Of a stretch of DNA of 64,000 nucleotides, positions 1,191-15,644 are shown in pieces. This DNA is from Mycobacterium sherrisii (lineage in GTDB: Bacteria > Actinomycetota > Actinomycetes > Mycobacteriales > Mycobacteriaceae). How positions within the stretch are numbered: the first letter of the stretch is position 1; each line of letters begins with the position of its first letter. The translations under genes were made by a program, and so were the position numbers. The notes below the pieces were generated by a model that searched no databases, had not been told where the DNA came from, and saw only the letters and a program-made list of their open reading frames with translations. The DNA lies in the NCBI RefSeq assembly GCF_002102355.1, contig NZ_LQPT01000019.1, forward strand, positions 186,001-250,000, written 5' to 3'.

Positions 1191-3596
1191 CTAATCACCC
1201 CGGTCTGTCGGCCGTCGCCACAATTGCGGCTCGATCCCGAGGATCCGGGCCCGGATCCACCAGGTGGCCTCGATGGCCGCCGCACCCAGGACCCCGATCT
1301 GCAAAGCGGTGGCCGTCACCACCGGATTCGAGAAGTCCAGCAGAAACTTCTGCTGCGCGAACGGGATGCTGAAGATCGCGACGTAGGCCAAGGCGCTGGC
1401 GGCCACCAGCGCCACCCGCCACCATTGGTAGGGACGCGCGACCACGGCCAGCACCCACAGCCCGGTCACCAGCAGCGTGATGAGCGCGGCGGTCGACGCC
1501 TGCTCCTGTTCGGTGAAGCTGGCGTGGCGGCCCTGGTACGCCACCAGATACGAGACGAAGGTAGCGGTGCCGACGATCACGCCGGACGGCACCGCCGAGG
1601 TGAGCACGCGCCGGACGAAGCGCGGATGGGCACGCTCGTTGTTGGGCGCCAGCGACAGGATGAACGACGGGATTCCGATGGTGAACCACGCGGCGATGGT
1701 GACGTGGATCGGTTGGAACGGATAGAGCAGCGGGTCGGCCCGCAGCGGTGTGGACAACAAACACTCGAGACCGACCAACAGCGCGAGCAGCACCGAGTAC
1801 ACCGTCTTGGTCAAGAACAGATTGGCCACCCGCTCGATGTTGCCGATCACCCGCCGACCCTCTCCCACGACATAGGGCAGCGTGGCAAACCTGTTGTCCA
1901 GCAACACTATCTGGGCTACCGCGCGCGAGGCCGGACTACCGGCGCCCATCGCGACACCGATGTCGGCATCCTTGAGCGCCAGCACGTCGTTGACGCCGTC
2001 GCCGGTCATGGCCACGGTATGCCCATGCGCTTGCAGGGCATGCACGATGGCGCGCTTCTGATCCGGCCGCACCCGCCCGAAGGTGGTGTAGGTGTCCAGC
2101 GCGTCGGCCAGGGCGGCGGGGTCTTCGGGCAGTTGCCGCGCGTCCAGCGCGTCTCCGCGCAGGCCTAGCCGGGCCGCGACGGCACCGACCGACACCGCAT
2201 TGTCCCCGGAGATCACCTTGACCGAAACATGCTGGGCTGCAAAGTATTCCAGCGTCGGACGGGCGTCCGGGCGCACCTTTTGCTCCAGCACCACCAGGGC
2301 GGCCGGCGTCAGGCGGCCCGGCGCGGCCGGGTCATCCACAGCGACGTCCGCGGCACCGAGCAGCAGCACCCGCAGTCCGCGCGCCCCGATCTCTTCGGCC
2401 TGCACGGCGGCCGGTGTCGCCGGGTCGAGCAGCACATCGGGTGCACCGATCACCCAGTTGCCGTGCTCGCCGAAGGACACCCCGCTCCACTTGGTGGCCG
2501 ACTTGAACGGTGCCCGGGCCGTGGCGGTCCAGCCCGGCGGCCGGCCGAAGGCATCGGCGATCGCCCGCATGCTCGCGTTGGGGCGTGCGTCGGCCGCGGC
2601 CAGCGCGGCCAGCGCTTCGGCCACCGCGGCCGGACGGTCACCGGCGAGTTCGACCACCTCGGCGACGGCCATCCCCGTTTCGGTCAGGGTGCCGGTCTTG
2701 TCAGCGCACACCACGTCGACGCGGGCCAATCCCTCGATGGCCGGCAATTCTTGTACCAGACAACGACGTTGGCCAAGCCTGATCACGCCGACCGCGAACG
2801 CGATCGACGTCATCAGCACCAGACCCTCGGGCACCATCGGCGCCAACGCCCCCACCGTTCGCAGCACCGACTGGCGCCAATGCGCGTGGGTGGTGAACAA
2901 CTGCGTGTAGACCGTCAGCAGGCCGGCAGGCACCAGGAGGTAGGTGATGAATTGCAGGATCCGGTTGATGCCGTTGCGCAGTTCGGATTTCACCAGGGTG
3001 AACTTGCTGGCCTCCGCCGCGAGCTTGGCCGCGTAGGCCGCCGCGCCCACCCTGGTCGCGCGGTAGGCGCCGGTGCCGGCGACGACGAAGCTTCCCGACA
3101 TGACCGCATCGCCGGCGTGCTTGTCGATCGGGTCGGCCTCCCCGGTCAGCAGCGACTCGTCGACCTCCAGGTTGGCCTCCTCCAGGACCTCGCCGTCGAC
3201 CACGATTTGGTCCCCCGGGCCCAGCTCGATGATGTCGCCGAGCACCACGTCGCCGGGCGCCACTGTGCGGGTACCGGATTGCCTGCGCACCAACGGTTTT
3301 GCCTGGCCGACGATGGCCAGCGCGTCCAGCGTCTGTTTGGCGCGGATCTCCTGCACCATGCCGATGACGCTGTTGGCGATGATCAGCAGACCGAACAGGC
3401 CGTTGATGAGCGAACCCGTCGCCACCACGATCAGCAGCAGCACACCCAGGATCGCATTGATCCGGGTGAAGACGTTGGCGCGAACGATATCGGGGATGCT
3501 GCGGGTGGCGCGTGCCGGAAGCGCGTTGCTTCGCCCGTCGGCCACCCGCTGCGCCACCTCGGCATCGGTGAGGCCTGCGGCGGCGGCACGGGTCAT
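1191..3596 (-). CDS. ctpE: P-type ATPase CtpE, calcium transport
   Basis: 801-aa P-type cation ATPase. Visible elements: an N-terminal actuator part, paired membrane helices at about 47-80, a TGE loop at 151-153, MVPEGL in the fourth transmembrane helix (about 254-259), phosphorylation motif DKTGTLT with Asp299, and the hinge [16 protein letters not shown], followed by C-terminal membrane helices. Length and sequence fit mycobacterial CtpE (797 aa in M. tuberculosis), reported as a calcium-uptake ATPase. The start codon overlaps the stop of the upstream beta-lactamase-like lipoprotein gene by 4 bp (ATGA), so the two are translationally coupled. The ion specificity rests on family knowledge, not on residues I could verify. 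Confidence 0.92.
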
Positions 3597-5179
3597 CGGA
3601 CGAACGTTCCCAGCTTGTCCGTGTCGTAATACTCGAGGTTGAGCGTGGCCTCGCGAGACCCGGAAAACACCGCCTTGGAAATCGTTCCGGGCGGCGCATT
3701 TTCGTCAGTGATCGAGAAGACGAAGGTATCCCCGTCCCAGTGGGTGAGCGGGAACGTCCGGTTCTTGGGTCCCAGTGCAAGCTCGAGGCGGCCGTTGTTC
3801 TCGGTGACGACGGCCGGTCCCCAGTAGTCGTTGGCGTAGACGCCGAGGTAATCGGTGAGCGGCCGGGCCGGGCCGGGGTGCACGGGTGGCGGCCGGCCGA
3901 CCAGCGAGCCCTGCGGGTTGTTCATCCAGCCGAGTGCGTGGTTGTACAGCGTCGGCCAGTCCTGCCGGAGCTGGCCGTACTGCACCAGGTCCATGAATTG
4001 TGCGGTCAGCGCCTCCGGAATGCCGTACGGTGCGCCGTTGGTGAGCGCGATGATGCCGATGTCTTCCGACGGCAGGACAACGAAGTTGGTCGCCGCGCCC
4101 GACGAGAACCCACCGGAGTGGCTGTACTGGGTGCGCCCCGACGAGGTCACCGTGGCGTTGAACGCGTGACCGTAGCTGCCGGCGCGGGCTTTCGGCGATG
4201 CGGCAGGCATCGAGATGACCTGCGGAGTGATCGCGGGCAGCAGCGCCTCCGGCGCCGTGATCCGCTGACCGTTGTAGGTGCCGTTGGCCATCACCATGGC
4301 CAGCCAGCGCGCCAGGTCGTTGACCGACGAACTCACCCCGCCGGCGGGGGTCTGCGCATCGGCGTCGCGCTGGAAACGCGGTTCCCATTTGTCGCCGCTC
4401 TTGACGTGCAGCACCGCGCGGTTGGGCCGGGCCAGATAGTCGGCGTATCTCGAACTCGTCGACGTCATCCCCAGTGGGCGATACAGCACCTCGTCGGACA
4501 GGTCTTCCCAGGACTTACCCGCGGCACCGGCCACCGCCTCGGCGGCGGCGGTCAAGCCGAAGTTGGTGTAGCCGTAACTGCTTCGAAAAGCCGTCAGCGT
4601 CAACAACTTCAGCCGCTCCAGCACTTCCCGCCGGTCGTAGCCCAGATCCTCCAGCTTGTCGCCGGCGTGGTCGGGCAGTCCGGAGCGGTGCGAGTACAGG
4701 TCGGCGACGGTCACATGACTGGTGACGTAGGGGTCCGACAGCGCGAACCACGGCAGCTTGGCAACGACCGGGGTGTCCCAGGAAACGAGATGGTCGGTCA
4801 CCGCATGGGCTACCACGGTCGCGCCCACCGACTTCGACACCGACGCCAGTTGAAACACCGTATCGGCGTCGACCTGGTTGTCCTTGCCGTTGCCTTTTCT
4901 GGCGTCCTTGATTCCGAAACCCTTGGCGTACACGGTCTTCCCGCCACGGACAACCGCCACCGACATCCCTGGAACGCCGGTGTTGCGCATCAGGTCGCCG
5001 ACCAGGCCGTCGACCTTGGCGATGGCGTCGTCGATGCGTCGGGGCGGAATGTCCAGGCCGGACACCTCGTTGGGGGCCGCCGTGGACAACGCGGACGGCG
5101 ACACGGGTTGTCCGGCTCCGCATCCCACCAGCGCCGGCAGCATCGCGATGACGACGGCAAACACAGCGCGTTTCGTCAT
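3593..5179 (-). CDS. Serine beta-lactamase-fold lipoprotein (Rv0907-like)
   Basis: 528-aa protein of the class C beta-lactamase/penicillin-binding family. A lipoprotein signal peptide ends in ALVGC, with lipidated Cys20. The active-site motifs are visible: SVSK (Ser113/Lys116), YTN (Tyr204-x-Asn206) and an HSGG box about 150 residues further on. A C-terminal beta-rich domain follows. It is expected to face the periplasm as an esterase, D-amino-peptidase or peptidoglycan-modifying enzyme; true beta-lactamase activity is uncertain. It resembles Rv0907. It is the first gene of a ctpE operon, with a 4-bp overlap, and is divergent from the mug gene. Confidence 0.88.
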
Positions 5180-5814: not shown

Positions 5815-6900
5815 CCCGGCCGCATCGACGCGCTGGCCGGGGGCGGGGACCGCAACCTGGACGGCGGCGCTCTCCGCGGCCGTCAGCAGCCGTTCGACCG
5901 GCTCGGCCCACGGGTGTGGCGCCAACCGGAAGGTGCCCCAATGGACGGGCATCATCAGCCCGGACCCGCCGACGGTGAGGTCGCGGTGGGCCCGCACCGC
6001 TTCCTCGGGATTCATATGGATGTCGGGCCACGCGGCGTTGTAGGCGCCGACCGGCAACAGGGTCACATCGAAGGGTCCGTGGTCGGCGCCGATCTGCTCG
6101 AAACTTTTCGTGTATCCGGTGTCCCCGCCGAAGTACACCCGACGGGTAGGACCCATGATTGCCCAAGAAGCCCACAGGGTGGTGTTGCGGTCGGTGAATC
6201 GGCCCGAAAAGTGCCGCGCCGGAAGGCAAATCAGCGACAACTCGCCAACGTCGCCGCTTCCGTGCCAGTCGAGTTCGACGATTCGGTGCCCGGGGATGCC
6301 CCACGCGCGCAGATGGGCACCCACGCCGAGCGGCACGAAGAAGGGAGCCCACTGGGTGCGGGCCAGCGCGAGGATCGTGTCCATGTCCAGATGGTCGTAG
6401 TGGTCATGGCTGATGACCACGGCGTCGACCGCGGGCAGCGCCTCCAGCGCCACCGGCGGCGGGTGTAGACGCTCCGGACCGACCACGTGCGACGGCGAGC
6501 ACCGGTGACTCCACACCGGGTCGGTGAGCACCCGGTAACCGTCGATCTCCAGCAATGCCGTGGAGTGGCCGAGCCAGGTGACCGCCAGGCGGCCAGGGTC
6601 GCCGTCGAAGGTGCCCGGCGCCGCCAACGGGATCAAGTCGGGCGGTCGGCTCCGACCCCGGGCGCCGACGAACTCCCACGCGATCAGCGCGAGTTGCTCG
6701 CGGTTGAGGTTGTTGTTCGACGGCGCCTCGAGGTTGACGAACGACCCGTCGCGGCAATTGGGCGAGTGCCGGGTGACGGCAAGAATCGACGACGGGTCGG
6801 CCCCCAGGGCGGCGGGCGCGCCGCGCAGGGCTCGCAGCGCCCACCCGCCCGCGGCAAGCGTGAGCGTGCCGGCGGCCAGGCGCAGTGCTGCGGGCGCCAT
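5782..6900 (-). CDS. Metallo-beta-lactamase-fold hydrolase (Rv0906-like, NAPE-PLD type)
   Basis: 372-aa metal hydrolase. An N-terminal Ala/Leu-rich hydrophobic segment (about residues 5-28) may be a membrane anchor or signal. The metal-binding motif SHDHYDHLD is present, followed by FGGDTGY (bridging Asp), HMNPEEA and VHWGTF, which supply the remaining ligands. The layout matches the NAPE-phospholipase-D/UlaG-like branch rather than class B beta-lactamases. Length equals the 372 aa I remember for Rv0906. It begins 5 bp after the echA6 stop on the same strand, so it is very likely co-transcribed with echA6, which suggests a lipid-related substrate. The exact reaction is unknown. Confidence 0.88.
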   Translation of the reverse strand: MAPAALRLAAGTLTLAAGGWALRALRGAPAALGADPSSILAVTRHSPNCRDGSFVNLEAPSNNNLNREQLALIAWEFVGARGRSRPPDLIPLAAPGTFDGDPGRLAVTWLGHSTALLEIDGYRVLTDPVWSHRCSPSHVVGPERLHPPPVALEALPAVDAVVISHDHYDHLDMDTILALARTQWAPFFVPLGVGAHLRAWGIPGHRIVELDWHGSGDVGELSLICLPARHFSGRFTDRNTTLWASWAIMGPTRRVYFGGDTGYTKSFEQIGADHGPFDVTLLPVGAYNAAWPDIHMNPEEAVRAHRDLTVGGSGLMMPVHWGTFRLAPHPWAEPVERLLTAAESAAVQVAVPAPGQRVDAAGSARLNPWWRM

Positions 6901-7663: not shown

Positions 7664-9166
7664 GTGAGTCGCATCAAGACCAAACAACTACGAGACGCAG
7701 TGCTGGACGAGGGCTCGTTCGTGAGCTGGGACAGCGCGCCGCTCGAAATACCAATCAGCGAGGCCTATGCCCAGGAGCTCGCCGGCGCCCGGGCCGCCAC
7801 CGGCCTCGACGAGGCCGTATTAACCGGCGAGGGGCGCATATTCGGGCGGCGAGTGGCACTCGTGGTGTGTGAGTTCGGATTCCTCGGCGGGTCGATCGGC
7901 GTCGCGGCGGCCGAACGGATCACCAACGCGATCCAACGGGCCACGGCCGAACGCCTTCCACTGCTGGCCTCGCCGAGTTCCGGCGGTACCCGGATGCAGG
8001 AGGGCACGGTCGCGTTCCTGCAGATGGTGAAGATCGCCGCGGCGGTCACCCTGCACAAGCAAGCTCACCTGCCCTACCTCGTCTACCTGAGAAACCCCAC
8101 CACAGGCGGGGTTTTCGCGTCCTGGGGGTCGCTGGGGCACGTCACCGTGGCCGAACCCGGCGCGCTGATCGGCTTCCTGGGACCGCGGGTGTACGAACAG
8201 CTCTACGGCGAGCCTTTCCCGAAGGGCATTCAGACCGCGGAGAATTTGCACCGCCACGGCGTGATCGACGGCGTGGTGTCCATCGACGAACTGCGCCGCA
8301 CGACCGATCGCGCGCTGAAGGTCATCGCCGACGCCCCGGAGGAGCTACGCGCGCCTCAGCACGCCGAGCCGATTCCCGATGTGCCGGCATGGGATTCGGT
8401 GATCGCATCGCGGCGCCCCGACCGTCCGGGTGTTGGGCATTTGCTGCGGCACGGCGCCACCGACCGGGTGTTGCTGTCGGGCACCGGCAGCGGCGAGGCG
8501 GCGACCACCCTGTTGGCGCTGGCCAGGTTCGCCGGCCAACCGGCGGTCGTCCTCGGCCAGCAGCGTGTCACCGGCGGGCTCGTCGGGCCCGCATCGTTGC
8601 GGGAGGCCCGACGCGGCATGGCGTTGGCCGCGGAGCTGCGGCTGCCGCTGGTGCTGGTCATCGACACCGCCGGCCCGGCACTATCCGCCGAAGCCGAGCA
8701 GGGCGGGCTGGCCGGTCAGATCGCCCGATGCGTCGCGGAATTGGTGACGTTGGACACCCCGACGGTGTCGGTACTGCTCGGTCAGGGCAGCGGCGGCCCG
8801 GCGCTGGCGATGGTGCCCGCCGACCGGGTGCTGGCCGCCCTCAACGGCTGGCTGGCTCCACTGCCGCCGGAGGGCGCCAGCGCGATCGTGTTCCGCGATA
8901 CGGTGCATGCTCCCGAATTGGCTGCCGCGCAAGGCATTCGATCGGCCGATTTGCTGCGCTCGGGAATTATCGATGCCATCGTGCCGGAGCACCCCGATGC
9001 GGCGGAGGAACCGATCGAGTTCTCCCAACGGCTGTCGCGCGCGATCGCCACGGAGGTCAAGGCGTTGCGCGATATCCCCGGCGACGAACGGATGGCCGCG
9101 CGATTGCGCCGCTATCGCAACATCGGGTTGCCCGCGGCGACGTCGGCCTCCGGCGCCGCGAGGTAA
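7664..9166 (+). CDS. accD3: Acetyl/propionyl-CoA carboxylase beta subunit AccD3
   Basis: 500-aa carboxyltransferase with two crotonase-like halves: an N-terminal acyl-CoA-binding half (SSGGTRMQEG, PTTGGVFASWGS) and a C-terminal biotin-binding half (LIDTAGPALSAEAEQGG, GQGSGGPALAM). It lacks the N-terminal zinc ribbon of the E. coli AccD type. Length fits mycobacterial AccD3 (495 aa in H37Rv). It would transfer carboxyl groups from a biotinylated AccA subunit encoded elsewhere, to make malonyl-type building blocks. It starts at a GTG with no leader space for a ribosome site, suggesting leaderless translation. The last 55 bp overlap the convergent TetR gene. Confidence 0.9.
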   Translation: MSRIKTKQLRDAVLDEGSFVSWDSAPLEIPISEAYAQELAGARAATGLDEAVLTGEGRIFGRRVALVVCEFGFLGGSIGVAAAERITNAIQRATAERLPLLASPSSGGTRMQEGTVAFLQMVKIAAAVTLHKQAHLPYLVYLRNPTTGGVFASWGSLGHVTVAEPGALIGFLGPRVYEQLYGEPFPKGIQTAENLHRHGVIDGVVSIDELRRTTDRALKVIADAPEELRAPQHAEPIPDVPAWDSVIASRRPDRPGVGHLLRHGATDRVLLSGTGSGEAATTLLALARFAGQPAVVLGQQRVTGGLVGPASLREARRGMALAAELRLPLVLVIDTAGPALSAEAEQGGLAGQIARCVAELVTLDTPTVSVLLGQGSGGPALAMVPADRVLAALNGWLAPLPPEGASAIVFRDTVHAPELAAAQGIRSADLLRSGIIDAIVPEHPDAAEEPIEFSQRLSRAIATEVKALRDIPGDERMAARLRRYRNIGLPAATSASGAAR

Positions 9167-9798: not shown

Positions 9799-10950
9799 AT
9801 GAATGACGTCGATGTTCTGGTGATAGGTGCCGGCCCCACCGGCCTCACCCTTGCCGCGTCGCTGATCGACCGCGGCCTGCGGACGGTCGTGGCCGACAAG
9901 CAGCCCGAGGGAGCGAACACCTCGCGCGCCGCCGCCGTCAACGCGCGCACGCTGGAGGCGCTCGACCACCTCGACGTGTCGCGGCGCATGGTCAAAGCCG
10001 GACTGATCGCGCCGCGCTTCACCATCCGACAGGGCCGGCAGATCCTGATTCCGGTCCACTTCGACGGGCTCCCGACCGAGCATCCGTACACCCTGATGTT
10101 GTCGCAGGCCGAGACCGAGCGGTTGCTGCTGGAGCGCCTGCACGAACTGGGCGGCGCGGTGCTGCGTCCGAAGGTCCTGGACCGTTTCATCCAGGACGCC
10201 GACGGTGTGACCGCCACCTTTACCGACGGCGAGCGCATCCGCGCCGGCTACCTCGTCGGGGCCGACGGCATGCACAGCACCGTTCGCGCTCAGGCCGGAA
10301 TCGGGTTCGCCGGCGGCGAATTCAGCGAATCCTTCACGCTGGCCGACGTGCGGCTTTCCGGCGAGGCGCCCCGCGACGAGGTCGTCCTGTTCTACGCCAA
10401 GGACGGTTTGACGGTGCTGGCGCCATTGCCAGGCAATATCTTTCGCGTCGTCGCGCCGACGGCGCACGCCCCGCAGGTACCGTCGCTTGAGTTCGTCCAG
10501 TCATTGTTGGACAGCAGGGGCTTCGGCACGGGAGCCACGGTGGTCAGCCAGCTACTGTGGGGAACCCGATTCCGGATTCACCACCGCGTCGCCGACAGCT
10601 ACCGACGCGGCCGCGTGCTGCTCGCCGGCGATGCCGCCCACGTGCACAGCCCCGCCGGTGGCCAGGGCATGAACCTCGGGATCGTCGACGCGACCTCGTT
10701 GGCGGCAGCCCTTTCCGAAACCCTTTCCGGCGCCCTGACGACAGGAACCGACGCCGCCCTGGACCGCTATTGCAGCGTCCAGCGGGACCAGGCCCAACAT
10801 GTCTTGCGGTTGACCGGCCGACTCACCCGGGTCTCGACACTGCCGCGGCCGTTGCGCCCGGTGCGTAACGCCGGGATGCGCCTGGCCGCGCGGGTTCCCG
10901 CGGTGCGTCAGCAGCTGGCGCTGGAGCTGAGCGGCCTGAGCCGCGGTTAA
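9799..10950 (+). CDS. FAD-dependent aromatic monooxygenase (class A)
   Basis: 383-aa flavoprotein of the PHBH/TetX-like group A monooxygenases. Visible motifs: GAGPTGL at about residues 9-15 (Rossmann FAD site), a YLVGADGMHSTVR segment (the DG fingerprint), and RVLLAGDAAHVHSPAGGQGMN (the GD motif that binds the FAD ribityl and pyrophosphate). It would hydroxylate an aromatic or xenobiotic substrate with NAD(P)H and O2. It lacks the extra C-terminal thioredoxin-like domain of phenol- and rifampicin-type enzymes. The ATG has a good ribosome site (GGGAGAGGAG). It is divergent from, and probably repressed by, the adjacent TetR protein. Its TAA stop overlaps the convergent gene's stop within a shared TTAA. 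Confidence 0.85.
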   Translation: MNDVDVLVIGAGPTGLTLAASLIDRGLRTVVADKQPEGANTSRAAAVNARTLEALDHLDVSRRMVKAGLIAPRFTIRQGRQILIPVHFDGLPTEHPYTLMLSQAETERLLLERLHELGGAVLRPKVLDRFIQDADGVTATFTDGERIRAGYLVGADGMHSTVRAQAGIGFAGGEFSESFTLADVRLSGEAPRDEVVLFYAKDGLTVLAPLPGNIFRVVAPTAHAPQVPSLEFVQSLLDSRGFGTGATVVSQLLWGTRFRIHHRVADSYRRGRVLLAGDAAHVHSPAGGQGMNLGIVDATSLAAALSETLSGALTTGTDAALDRYCSVQRDQAQHVLRLTGRLTRVSTLPRPLRPVRNAGMRLAARVPAVRQQLALELSGLSRG

Positions 10951-13076
10951 CCGGCGACGTTGTCGGGTGTCAGCAGCTGCCAGTCGTCGGACAGGCCGTG
11001 CGCCTTGGCGGTCTCGCCCTCGGCCTCCAGGTGCACGGTGCTGGAGCCCAAGCGCAGATTGGTCAACGCGATCCGTCCCCACTCGACCGGCAGCCGCGGC
11101 GCGATCGACAGGGTACGGTTCGGCACATGCGGGTCCAGCCCCAGCGCCGACCGCAACAGCAACAGCGGAGCCGCGCTGGCCCACGCCTGCGGTGAGCAGG
11201 ACGTGGGATAGGGCACCGGCGCGGCGAACTGGGTACGGGGAAAACCGCAGAACAACTCGGGCAGCCTTCCGCCGAAAGACGTTGCGGCATCGAGAAGTTC
11301 ACTCGTTAGACGGTGCGCCAAATGCACCGCGCCCGGCACGTGGCCGTAGCGCAGCAACCCGGCCACCGCGATGGCGGTGTCATGCGGCCACACCGAGCCG
11401 TTGTGGTAGCTCATGGGGTTGTACGCCCCCATGCCGGTGGCCAGCGTCCGCAGCCCGAAACCGGAGTCCATCTCCGGACCGGACAACCGCTCCACAATGG
11501 CCGCGGCGTGTTCATCGGTCGCAATTCCGGTCCACAGGCAATGGCCCACATTGCTCGTCAACGCGTCGACAGGGCGCTTGTGCCTATCCAATGCGACCGC
11601 ATACCAACCCTTTTCGGGCAGCCAAAACTTTTGGATGAACCTGTCCCGCAGCAGCTGGGCACGCGCGCGCAGCCGGTCAGCGCGGCCGGTGTCGCCCATC
11701 GCCTCGGCGAGTTCGGCCCGCGCCAGCAGCGCGGCGTATACGTAGCCTTGCACTTCGCACAGCGCGATCGGCGGCTCGGCGATGCGGCCGGCGGCGTCGT
11801 TGATCCCGTCGAAGCTGTCCTTCCAGCCCTGATTGATCAGCCCACGGTCGGTGGCACGCTGGTATTCCACGAAGCAATCGCCGTCCTGATCGCCGTACTC
11901 CTGCGCCCAGGCCAGCGCCGCGTCGGCCGCCGGCAGCAACGCGCGGATGACCGCCTCGTCGGCGCCCCACCGCCAGCATTCGGCAAGCAGCATCACGAAC
12001 AGCGGCGTCGCATCGGCCGTCCCGTAGTAGACGCCACCGCCCAGCACGTCGGCACTGTCGGGGCCGTGCCTGAGCTCATGCATGATGCGGCCGGGCTGTT
12101 CCTCGGTGACGGCATCGACGCGCCGGCCCTGCAGGTCCGCAAGCCGCTGCAGGGTACCGATGGAGAGGCCGACGTCCAGCGGGAGAGCCATCCAGGCGGT
12201 GAGCAAACTGTCCCGGCCGAACAACGTCATAAACCAGGGCGCTCCCGCGGCGACATACGACCGGCGACCGTCGGCGTCGTGGATCAGCAACGCCCCCAAG
12301 TCACTCTCGGTCTGGCCGAGCACGCGGGCCAGCACGGTGTGGTCGGTGTCGACCGTGGTCGCGCTGTCGCGCCACGCCTCGATCTTGCGGGCCGGCGCGC
12401 TGTTTCGCGCGGTCTCCCCGCGCGGGGTGCCGGTGCGGACCTTGTGATTCGCCCACGTCGGTTGCGCCGTGATCTCGGTCTGCCAGCGCCCCCCGGGCGG
12501 CACCACCACCCGCCAGTTCAGCGACCCGGGTACCACCACCGGGTCACCGGTCGCCGACACCGTGAGGCCCCGCAGCCGGTCGCCCCGGCCGCGCAGCACG
12601 AGTTCGCCTGCGGCCACCGCCTTTTCGGCCCCGCCGACCGGTACTCGTCCCTCCTTGACCGCGAACAGGTCCGCGAAGTCCGCGTCGGCGTGCAGCTCGA
12701 GGGACACGACGGTGCTTTCCTTGTCCATGTTCTGCAGCCAGATCGTTTCCCGCAGCCCGTCGGTCACCAGCCGTTCGCGCACGACCAGCAGTGTGCTGTC
12801 CGGCCCCGAACGCGGTGGCCGTCGCAGAATGAACTGCGCGGCAAACGCTTCCGTCGATTCGACCGACAGCGCCTCGGCGGTTTCCCCGTCGATGCGCAGC
12901 TCCCAGCGCGACAGCACCCGCGCGTCGCGGAAAAACAATCCGTGTGACCTGCCGACCATCACGTTCCCGTGCCGGTCGGACAGGCAGAACGTCGCGCCGT
13001 CGACCAGCGTCACCGTGTCGCCGCCGGAGCCGATCTGGACCGGTGAGCCGCTGTTGAAAGGCGTCGGAGCCGTCAC
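10947..13076 (-). CDS. Glycogen debranching-type amylo-alpha-1,6-glucosidase
   Basis: 709-aa protein with an N-terminal debranching-enzyme beta domain (from about residue 10, SGSPVQIGSGGDTVTL to RGLTVSA) and a C-terminal (alpha/alpha)6 glucosidase domain. Recognisable blocks are AAGAPWFMTLFGRDSL, INQGWKDSFDGI and NPMSYHNGSVWPHDTA. It probably hydrolyses alpha-1,6 branches or terminal glucose of an alpha-glucan in the cytoplasm. The GTG at 13076 was chosen because it forms a 4-bp GTGA overlap with the stop of the upstream glycosyltransferase gene; the longer open frame reads back into that gene. The pair forms an operon behind a CIRCE-like element. It is not at this place in H37Rv. Confidence 0.87.
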   Translation of the reverse strand: MTAPTPFNSGSPVQIGSGGDTVTLVDGATFCLSDRHGNVMVGRSHGLFFRDARVLSRWELRIDGETAEALSVESTEAFAAQFILRRPPRSGPDSTLLVVRERLVTDGLRETIWLQNMDKESTVVSLELHADADFADLFAVKEGRVPVGGAEKAVAAGELVLRGRGDRLRGLTVSATGDPVVVPGSLNWRVVVPPGGRWQTEITAQPTWANHKVRTGTPRGETARNSAPARKIEAWRDSATTVDTDHTVLARVLGQTESDLGALLIHDADGRRSYVAAGAPWFMTLFGRDSLLTAWMALPLDVGLSIGTLQRLADLQGRRVDAVTEEQPGRIMHELRHGPDSADVLGGGVYYGTADATPLFVMLLAECWRWGADEAVIRALLPAADAALAWAQEYGDQDGDCFVEYQRATDRGLINQGWKDSFDGINDAAGRIAEPPIALCEVQGYVYAALLARAELAEAMGDTGRADRLRARAQLLRDRFIQKFWLPEKGWYAVALDRHKRPVDALTSNVGHCLWTGIATDEHAAAIVERLSGPEMDSGFGLRTLATGMGAYNPMSYHNGSVWPHDTAIAVAGLLRYGHVPGAVHLAHRLTSELLDAATSFGGRLPELFCGFPRTQFAAPVPYPTSCSPQAWASAAPLLLLRSALGLDPHVPNRTLSIAPRLPVEWGRIALTNLRLGSSTVHLEAEGETAKAHGLSDDWQLLTPDNVAG

Positions 13077-14263
13077 ACGGCGGCCTTGTGGATGAAGTCG
13101 TGGGTGCGTCCGTCGTGCCCGAGGGATTCGACGACGCCCATGCCGCGCACGCCGCGAGGGGCGTCGCCCGTCCGCTCCAGGACGCCGCAATAGATCTGTT
13201 CGTATGCCGAGCCGAACTGTGCCACATCGAAATTGGCGGCAACATGTCGCCGGCACGCGTGCGGATCCAGTGTCTGCGCCCGGTCGATAGCGGCAGGCAG
13301 TTCGTCGGCGTCTTCGCATACCACGCCCGTCACACCGTCGACGATCACTTCCGGTACCGACCCGCCGCGCAGCGCGACGACCGGCGTGCCGCAGGCCATC
13401 GCCTCGAGCATCACGATCCCGAATGGCTCCTCCCAGTCGATCGGGAACAGCAGACAACGGGCGCGCGACAACAGCTTTCGCTTGCTGACCGCATCGGCCT
13501 CACCGAACACGTGGTCGCTGTCGGTGAGCAGCGGGCGCACGCACTCCTCGAAGTATTCCTTCTCTGCAGGCTCGCTGCATTTGCCGGCGAGCACCAGCGG
13601 GATCCCGGCCTCGTGTGCCGCCCGCACCGCGCGATGAGCGCCTTTATAGGGCGCGTACCGGCCCAAAAACAGCGCGTAATCGTGCTTCTCGGTCTCGAAA
13701 GGCCATTCGTCGATCCGCAGCGCATTGTGCACGCGGCCAACCCAATTCAGATCGGGAGCCAGTTCCTGTTGCCGGTCGCTGATTGCCACCAGCCCGACAT
13801 CGCCGCTGAGCTCCCGGTAGTAGGGGTACAGATCGTCGTCGATGGGGCCGTGCACCGTGACCACCGTCGGCACCCGAAGCGCGTGATAGGCCGGGGCGTT
13901 GATGGGTCCGGCGAAGGTGTGGTCGTGCACGATGTCGACACCGTCGGTCGCGGCGATCCGGGTCACCGCGCTACGCACCTTCAACGCGTGCATGACCTCC
14001 GGGTACGGCTGGCCCAGCCGGTCGGGCAGGGTGCGATCCCACAGCGGGACGAAGTCGGCCGCCGTACCAGGCCGGCCGGCGCCGAGCAGCGTGACGTGGT
14101 GCCCGCGGGCCACCAGCGTGTCGGCCAGGTCGGCGACGACCGCTTCGACGCCGCCGTAGCCGTTGGGTGGAACATCGAAATACGGCGGGGCGACCAGCAC
14201 GATCCGGATGGGCCGCCCGGACTCCACTTTGCTGGCGGGCAAGACGAAATCGGCAGCGCGCAT
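13073..14263 (-). CDS. GT4-family glycosyltransferase
   Basis: 396-aa GT-B-fold glycosyltransferase. The N-terminal half has the GYGGVEAVV glycine-rich acceptor loop after VLVAPPYFDVP. The C-terminal half has FLGRYAPYKGAH and the family motif EEPFGIVMLEAMACGTPVV (E-x7-E), which binds the nucleotide sugar. The ATG at 14263 is preceded by GAGGAGGAG, a strong ribosome site. It is the first gene of a two-gene operon with the debranching enzyme, consistent with building or remodelling an alpha-glucan or glucose-containing solute. The donor and acceptor cannot be read from the sequence. A CIRCE-like operator lies 35 bp upstream of the start. Confidence 0.88.
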   Translation of the reverse strand: MRAADFVLPASKVESGRPIRIVLVAPPYFDVPPNGYGGVEAVVADLADTLVARGHHVTLLGAGRPGTAADFVPLWDRTLPDRLGQPYPEVMHALKVRSAVTRIAATDGVDIVHDHTFAGPINAPAYHALRVPTVVTVHGPIDDDLYPYYRELSGDVGLVAISDRQQELAPDLNWVGRVHNALRIDEWPFETEKHDYALFLGRYAPYKGAHRAVRAAHEAGIPLVLAGKCSEPAEKEYFEECVRPLLTDSDHVFGEADAVSKRKLLSRARCLLFPIDWEEPFGIVMLEAMACGTPVVALRGGSVPEVIVDGVTGVVCEDADELPAAIDRAQTLDPHACRRHVAANFDVAQFGSAYEQIYCGVLERTGDAPRGVRGMGVVESLGHDGRTHDFIHKAAV

Positions 14264-14297
14264 TGACGTTCTCCTCCTCACAGCCGCACGGCACGCG

Positions 14298-14324
14298 TTA
14301 GCAATCTCATCCGATGAGTGCCAA
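14298..14324. promoter_or_regulatory. CIRCE-like HrcA operator
   Basis: TTAGCAATC (14298-14306), a 9-bp spacer, then GAGTGCCAA (14316-14324). The classical CIRCE element is TTAGCACTC-N9-GAGTGCTAA. This site has the exact 9-9-9 layout and matches 16 of 18 conserved arm positions. It lies 35 bp upstream of the glycosyltransferase ATG, a usual position for CIRCE near a transcription start. The element is palindromic and could also affect the MFS gene on the other side. Confidence 0.65.
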
Positions 14325-14351
14325 TTATGGCCGTTATCGCCCCGTCCGCAA
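14324..14351 (-). promoter_or_regulatory. Possible sigma-A promoter of glycosyltransferase operon
   Basis: Reading the minus strand, TTGCGG (14351-14346) and CATAAT (14329-14324) are separated by 16 bp, a plausible -35/-10 pair. The -10 box abuts the CIRCE-like element, so a bound repressor would cover the transcription start. The -35 is weak (about half the consensus). Confidence 0.4.
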
Positions 14352-14396: not shown

Positions 14397-15644
14397 ATGC
14401 GTTGTCGAGACCAGGCTGTGGTTTTCGGTCGCGACCGGGTCGCGCTGCAGTCGCTGAATTTCTTCATGGCGGATATGGAAGCCGGCATGGGCCCTTTCCT
14501 CGGCGTATTGCTCGCCGGGCGCGGCTGGACCACCGGCACCATCGGCGCGGTCATCACCCTGGGTGCGATCGTCGGCATGATCAGCGTCGCTCCGGCGGGC
14601 GCACTGGTCGACGCCACCTCCCGCAAACGGACCTGCGTCATCGTGGTCGGCCTGGGCGCCGTCGCGGCCTCGGCCGTCATCCTCACCTGCGGACACTTCT
14701 GGGTCGTCGCCGCCGCGCAGTCCGTCATGTGCGTCTCGGGCGCCACCATCGCCCCGGCCGTGATCGGCATCACCCTCGGGCTGGTGGGACAAGCCGGCTT
14801 CACCGCGCAGAACGGGCGCAATCAGGCCTACAACCACGCCGGCAACCTGGTCGGCGCCGGGGCGTCCGGGCTCGTCGGCTGGATCTTCGGGTATGCCGGA
14901 GTGTTCTGGCTGGCCGTGGGATTCGCCGGGCTGGCCATCGTGTCCGTCCTGGCGATCCCCGCCGGCCGGATCAACGATCACATCGCGCGGGGCGAGGCGA
15001 CCGCGGGCGGCGCCCCGGTCAGCAGGATGCGCGTGCTGCTCGAATCCAAACCGCTGCTGGCGCTGGCCGCCGCCCTGGTGCTGTTCCACCTCGGCAATGC
15101 GGCGATGCTGCCGCTCTACGGGCTGGCCGTGGTCGCCACCCACGCCAACCCGTTCATCACGGTGGCTGAAACGGTGGTCGTGGCGCAGGGGGTGATGATC
15201 GTCGCGTCACTGGCGGCCATGCGGATCGCCCAGACCCGTGGCTACTGGTGGGCCATCCTGATCGCGTTCAGCGCGTTACCGGTGCGCGGGCTGCTCGCCG
15301 CCGGCCTGATCACCAGCTGGGGCGTCATTCCGGTGCAGATGCTCGACGGCGTCGGGGCCGGCATGCTCTCGGTCGCGGTACCGGGCCTGGTGGCCCGGCT
15401 GCTCGACGGTACCGGCCACATCAATGTCGGCCAGGGCGCCATCATGGCGGCGCAGGGCCTCGGCGGCGCGCTGAGCCCGATCCTGGGCGGGGTGGTGGCC
15501 CAGCACCTCGGATACCCGGCCGCCTTCCTGTTGCTCGGTGCAATTTCGGTGGGATCGCTGCTCATCTGGCTCGGGTTCGCCACCACGCTGCGCCGAGTCG
15601 ACGGTGGCCCCGCCCGGCCTCCCGCGGTCGCCGACGCGGCCTGA
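14397..15644 (+). CDS. MFS transporter
   Basis: 415-aa integral membrane protein with about 12 hydrophobic segments, a cytoplasmic DATSRKRT loop after the second helix (typical MFS motif-A position) and a hydrophilic central loop ([15 protein letters not shown]). The ATG at 14397 was chosen because the protein then begins at a plausible cytoplasmic N-terminus ([14 protein letters not shown]). Earlier starts read through the intergenic region that contains the CIRCE-like site. It is divergent from the glycosyltransferase operon and upstream of prrA. The substrate is unknown; the neighbours hint at a sugar or solute, but there is no direct evidence. Confidence 0.85.

Follow-up and report, generated by a model that had tools for sequence, protein, structure and literature searches.

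The locus lies in a 64,000-nucleotide stretch of a Mycobacterium sherrisii contig (NZ_LQPT01000019.1, positions 186,001 to 250,000), which we call the window and number from its first letter. On its minus strand two overlapping genes, gtf and agl, follow a putative CIRCE element, the operator type of the heat-shock repressor HrcA:

10947 to 13076, minus strand: agl, a glycoside hydrolase gene with GDE_N_bis and MGH1-like/GDE_C domains, 709 amino acids; closest solved structure 7vma
13073 to 14263, minus strand: gtf, a GT4-type glycosyltransferase gene, 396 amino acids; closest solved structure TeGSS (7fg9)
14271 to 14279, minus strand: purine-rich ribosome-binding site GAGGAGGAG, assigned from sequence
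14298 to 14324, minus strand: putative CIRCE operator, TTGGCACTC-N9-GATTGCTAA on the operon strand; present at the best gtf copy of all 43 carriers (congeneric genomes with a gtf ortholog, defined below)
14324 to 14329, minus strand: -10 box CATAAT, with one base in common with CIRCE; the same hexamer in 36 of 43 orthologs
14346 to 14351, minus strand: possible -35 element TTGCGG, 16-nt spacer; three of six positions match TTGACA, weak here
14397 to 15644, plus strand: divergent MFS transporter gene, a neighbour that adjoins 10 of 43 orthologous operons

Read along the minus strand, TTGCGG (14351–14346) is followed after 16 nt by CATAAT (14329–14324), CIRCE (14324–14298), GAGGAGGAG and the gtf start codon, an ATG at 14263 separated from the dyad by 34 nt. 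The agl gene starts with a GTG at 13076 and overlaps the gtf stop codon by 4 bp. Because the -10 box shares a base with the dyad, transcription starting 6–8 nt downstream would begin inside the dyad, and the placement at a promoter and transcription start that characterizes CIRCE is found here as a conserved -10 box abutting the dyad and a predicted start. The divergent MFS gene also faces the dyad.

On the forward strand the dyad reads TTAGCAATC-N9-GAGTGCCAA (in full, TTAGCAATC-TCATCCGAT-GAGTGCCAA) and departs at 2 of 18 arm bases from the CIRCE consensus, which we take to be 9-bp arms TTAGCACTC and GAGTGCTAA around a 9-bp spacer; the 9-9-9 layout is exact. It is the sole match with three or fewer mismatches in the window, and none of 100 shuffles yields one. 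At the same threshold the complete assembly, 5.56 Mb in 128 contigs, contains four sites, each with two mismatches, and a control search with the CIRCE pattern reversed returns no match across the 5.56 Mb. The other three sites stand in front of chaperonin genes, one before groES and two in tandem before groEL2. The inner core GCACT-N11-AGTGC is by itself unenriched (6 genomic sites versus 6 for the control), and it is therefore the full arms that matter. A sequence-only reading of this DNA had described a CIRCE-like 9-9-9 dyad with 16 of 18 arm bases beside a plausible -10 box; genome counts and shuffles confirm the dyad as above chance, and the -10 box proves to be fused to it.

Conservation was analysed across congeneric genomes in two draws. 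The first comprised 198 genomes including that of M. sherrisii, and all 20 further genomes with a best gtf match of at least 71% identity had CIRCE. The larger draw comprised 396 genomes, among which those of the first draw recur, and 45 had a gtf match at E ≤ 1e-120. We define as carriers the 43 genomes, M. sherrisii included, whose best gtf match reaches at least 71% identity (71.4–92.9% outside M. sherrisii itself). In every carrier a CIRCE precedes the best gtf copy, with 0 (19 genomes), 1 (20), 2 (three) or 3 (one) mismatches, corresponding to 15 to 18 of the 18 arm bases. The sites comprise 35 distinct 27-mers, and the dyad stays while the flanks diverge between orthologous loci: mean information is 1.84 bits in the arms, 0.81 in the spacer and 0.64 in the flanks (25 distinct sites from 28 loci). 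The distance from the far end of CIRCE to the position corresponding to the gtf start ranges from 40 to 128 bp (61 in M. sherrisii), and agl adjoins gtf in all 43. Beyond the recurrent CATAAT, a -35 match of 4–5 of six positions at a spacing of 15–19 occurs in 20 of 43 orthologs, versus 20 of 215 control offsets with at least 4.

Second gtf copies provide an internal control. Seven carriers have one, at 60–76% identity, and none of the seven has CIRCE upstream, including the 76%-identical copy in genome G250. Two genomes whose sole gtf match is at 54–57% identity (G028 and G079) are also without CIRCE, as are nine of nine remote gtf homologs within the genus (L056–L064). The second copies are at L145, L146, L147, L148, L149, L179 and L180; among the five inspected for it (L145–L149), those in L145 and L146 are accompanied by agl. 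In the genus as a whole, the pattern scan returned 1–8 CIRCE sites in each of the 198 genomes and 0–3 matches for the reversed control, with equal counts of three in G169, so that lone sites with three mismatches can be chance. A chance origin could likewise be proposed for the M. sherrisii dyad, given its two arm mismatches and the 0.51 sites per genome that a base-composition model predicts at three or fewer mismatches. However, the same model predicts only 0.026 sites at two or fewer, and the occurrence of CIRCE at every best gtf copy (43 of 43 carriers) and at none of the seven second copies refutes a fortuitous palindrome, to which we assign a negligible probability.

The position of the MFS gene raises the question of which gene the operator serves. 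Only 72 nt separate the dyad from the MFS start codon (14397), and regulation of this gene instead of or besides gtf would fit that proximity. Yet the MFS gene is adjacent in just 10 of 43 orthologous loci whereas CIRCE is present in all 43, and the conserved -10 box is directed at gtf. We reject MFS as the main regulated gene on these grounds, and any role of the operator at MFS appears very improbable.

A further possibility is that an ancestral operator is decaying in M. sherrisii and its relatives, leaving weak or half-site regulation here. In 8 of 43 orthologs, M. sherrisii included, the GAGTGC of one dyad half (14298–14306 in the window) has changed to GATTGC or GACTGC, and the M. sherrisii dyad has an A-to-G change as its second arm substitution. 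The change from GAGTGC may possibly reflect tuning or decay. Against decay, the M. sherrisii groES and groEL2 sites carry two mismatches each as well, and both the GCACTC half of the dyad and the -10 box are intact; we consider decay improbable, although less so than a role at MFS. As a separate observation, at least five of the eight orthologs with altered GAGTGC have the divergent MFS gene, and one locus with the MFS gene (L038) retains GAGTGC.

A contig scan found 103 relatives, and 79 loci were kept, some of which coincide with genomes in the draws. Among the Mycobacteriaceae loci, CIRCE is present in 11 of 12 with 0–1 mismatch: M. genavense, M. tilburgii, M. alsense, M. palustre, M. triplex, M. 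intermedium, M. sp. SM1, M. hubeiense, M. sp. Bu41, M. barrassiae and M. canariasense. In M. lepraemurium (L079, about 4950–5001) CIRCE, the promoter and the first 65 gtf residues are missing at a junction with the MFS gene. CIRCE is likewise absent (0 of 3) from the Nocardia orthologs, whose identity is about 71%; together with the second copy in G250 they indicate that gtf homology alone does not confer the site. Control of the Nocardia orthologs by HspR was considered and set aside, as a HAIR consensus has no match with four or fewer mismatches near the gene in any of the three. In 64 further loci (L080–L143), scanned over the whole locus at up to four mismatches, no CIRCE was found near the gtf homolog; L141 has one match with four mismatches, 3.3 kb from the homolog, and L087, L117 and L132 begin within 35 bases of the gtf match and hold almost no upstream sequence. 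The gtf-agl pair itself extends to distant phyla (L101, L102, L109, L122 and L137), where its neighbours, inspected by eye, include no clear stress marker.

Within the mycobacteria the operon occupies varied surroundings, in which neighbours were identified by eye or from similarity to the PrrA and PrrB of the window. It lies beside prrA/prrB and the MFS gene in M. genavense, M. tilburgii, M. alsense, M. palustre and M. triplex, beside prrA without the MFS gene in M. sp. SM1 and M. sp. Bu41, beside an accD3-like gene in M. hubeiense, and at other sites in M. barrassiae and M. canariasense. CIRCE travels with the operon through these changes of neighbourhood, which argues that it belongs to the operon.

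The repressor gene is present. The M. sherrisii genome encodes one HrcA (E 4.6e-57), and hrcA was found in all 21 carriers tested, out of the 43. Elsewhere in the genus, CIRCE sites were seen near groES, groEL2, a galU-region gene and Hsp20-like genes (30 loci, by eye). We take the galU-region gene to be the ruc region; several congeners have a site there, and the M. sherrisii genome has no CIRCE with three or fewer mismatches near it. By eye, sites with 0–2 mismatches stand beside Hsp20-like genes in L011, L017 and L030 and, uncertainly, in L005, L009, L012, L020, L028 and L031. In another locus (L148 of genome G002, 6867–6893) two genes again named by eye, the first peroxiredoxin-like and the next glutaredoxin-like, come immediately after a CIRCE with two mismatches, and the peroxiredoxin-like gene is possibly another HrcA target outside the chaperonins.

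In M. tuberculosis the described HrcA/CIRCE targets include groES-groEL1, groEL2, rv0991c-rv0990c (Rv0991c being ruc) and hrcA-dnaJ2 (PMC7448276, PMC8557902). The repressor family is the same, and the same dyad is found at groES and groEL2 in M. sherrisii; no carbohydrate enzyme is among these M. tuberculosis targets. They are chaperone-type genes, ruc and hrcA-dnaJ2, and with gtf-agl the chaperone regulon would gain a metabolic member. The sequence-only reading had proposed an HrcA/CIRCE operator for a glycosyltransferase and debranching operon, and that proposal withstood the comparison of orthologous upstream regions; very probably, HrcA control of gtf-agl is conserved. Literature searches on HrcA and CIRCE, mycobacterial heat shock, ctpE and debranching showed no report of gtf-agl as a target among the papers listed. 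The operator type is known and the target class unusual, and as far as those searches show this HrcA target is undescribed.

Gtf matches GT4-type Pfam models, and its best solved relatives are 7fg9 (E 3.8e-63) and 8x3q (E 8.4e-63). The former is the Thermosynechococcus enzyme TeGSS, a UDP-glucose:sucrose alpha-1,2-glucosyltransferase, and glucosylsucroses increase under salt and heat stress (PMC9909042). Gtf residues Y36, R202, K207 and E279 align with Y18, R179, K184 and E256 of TeGSS, under a numbering offset of the PDB chain that we deduced from its tag; in addition to overall homology, Gtf thus has the counterparts of catalytic Tyr18 and Arg179 and of UDP-binding Lys184 and Glu256. The last of these is Glu256 in the text and Glu265 in a figure legend of the source paper (PMC9909042). 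All four Gtf residues, and likewise E287, are invariant across the 43 orthologs, the 7 second copies and the 19 distant homologs compared. By contrast, all 43 orthologs have Tyr at the position of TeGSS W10, the residue that stacks on fructose (Trp in 7 of 19 distant homologs). No sucrose-phosphate synthase (TIGR02472) scores over the cut-off in the 21 carrier genomes searched, which give weaker glycosyltransferase matches only (control over the cut-off in 1 of 14); in a search for sucrose synthase the control matched nowhere. The lack of sucrose-phosphate synthase over the cut-off and the Tyr at the W10 position make sucrose an unlikely acceptor, and the acceptor of Gtf is probably a different molecule.

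The nearest described enzyme system, TeGSS/Tll1591 and alr1000, resembles Gtf as its closest solved homolog with the catalytic residues kept and as a source of a stress-linked oligosaccharide (PMC9909042), and differs at the W10 position and in that the 21 carriers searched have no sucrose-phosphate synthase over the cut-off. A word search of the main text of that paper also finds no mention of a debranching partner. Agl has GDE_N_bis, MGH1-like_GH and GDE_C Pfam domains over the cut-off and is homologous over residues 276–649 to 7vma, a GDE-type amylo-alpha-1,6-glucosidase (whole-sequence E 2.4e-77). It is best described as a GDE-like glycoside hydrolase with putative alpha-1,6-glucosidase activity.

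The best explanation of the locus as a whole, with its conserved fusion of operator and promoter, its two overlapping genes, the retained catalytic residues of Gtf and an hrcA gene in the genome, is that the dyad acts as a working HrcA operator of gtf-agl, a reading in which we have high confidence. By analogy with known HrcA biology, HrcA bound to the dyad would block RNA polymerase at normal temperature. Heat or misfolded protein would lower the amount of active HrcA through titration of GroEL and, in mycobacteria, also through a proposed proteasomal breakdown of HrcA, and gtf-agl would be derepressed along with groES and groEL2. From homology, Gtf would then use UDP-glucose to glucosylate a small sugar or a glucan primer, giving an alpha-glucoside, which Agl would trim or recover, so that together they may maintain a reversible, stress-induced pool. 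A heat-inducible alpha-glucoside cycle is our best inference for this output. Production or mobilization of a protective sugar, as the sequence-only reading also envisaged, is plausible; it is helped by a closest solved Gtf relative that is a stress-linked glucosylsucrose synthase and weakened by the lack of a sucrose-phosphate synthase over the cut-off.

A competing account accepts a real HrcA operator and places its output in cell-envelope or calcium homeostasis, because gtf-agl heads an operon for the Ca2+ uptake protein CtpE in some species. RT-PCR has shown that in M. smegmatis echA-bla-pbp-ctpE share a transcript with gtf and agl, within a ctpE operon of the order gtf-agl-echA-bla-pbp-ctpE-chp-chp (PMC5615198). 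By annotation this is the same gtf-agl pair, and its downstream order is nearly that of L182, where gtf and agl come after CIRCE and precede echA, bla, a methyltransferase-like gene, pbp and ctpE (echA, bla, pbp and ctpE named by eye); in L181 the order is CIRCE, gtf, agl, bla, pbp and ctpE (bla, pbp and ctpE named by eye). The M. smegmatis operon is described as Ca2+-repressed, and the word 'heat' is absent from the main text of that paper (PMC5615198). In the literature searched, no paper contains both HrcA and ctpE. Unlike this arrangement, in the M. sherrisii window ctpE (1191–3596) forms with pbp, bla and echA a separate unit beyond accD3 (named by eye), and a FAD-enzyme-like open reading frame (9799–10950, plus strand) and accD3 (7664–9166, plus strand) intervene between it and gtf-agl. 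In L068, L072 and L073, moreover, agl is followed directly by a gene on the opposite strand. Envelope or calcium homeostasis as the output instead of a protective sugar seems unlikely, though far from negligible. The glucoside-pool reading can be made more specific: in many non-tuberculous mycobacteria, release of HrcA would induce a hydrolase and an alpha-glucosyltransferase that depends on UDP-glucose and belongs to the glucosylsucrose-synthase clade, with an undescribed thermoprotectant oligosaccharide as the product, and some species would also raise CtpE-mediated Ca2+ uptake. This fuller proposal we advance only tentatively, as conceivable rather than probable.

The presence of CIRCE before two sugar-enzyme genes in dozens of non-tuberculous mycobacteria suggests that a protective sugar is made or remodelled when these cells are heated, and CIRCE control would offer a role for the gtf-agl gene pair. 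In species with the M. smegmatis type of arrangement, heat may be a second input to the operon in which the Ca2+ importer CtpE is encoded. The CIRCE-gtf-agl unit offers a precise and inexpensive test for a mycobacterial stress sugar. If the interpretation is correct, an operator of this kind in front of a glycosyltransferase gene and its glycosidase partner would couple carbohydrate chemistry directly to the quality control of proteins.
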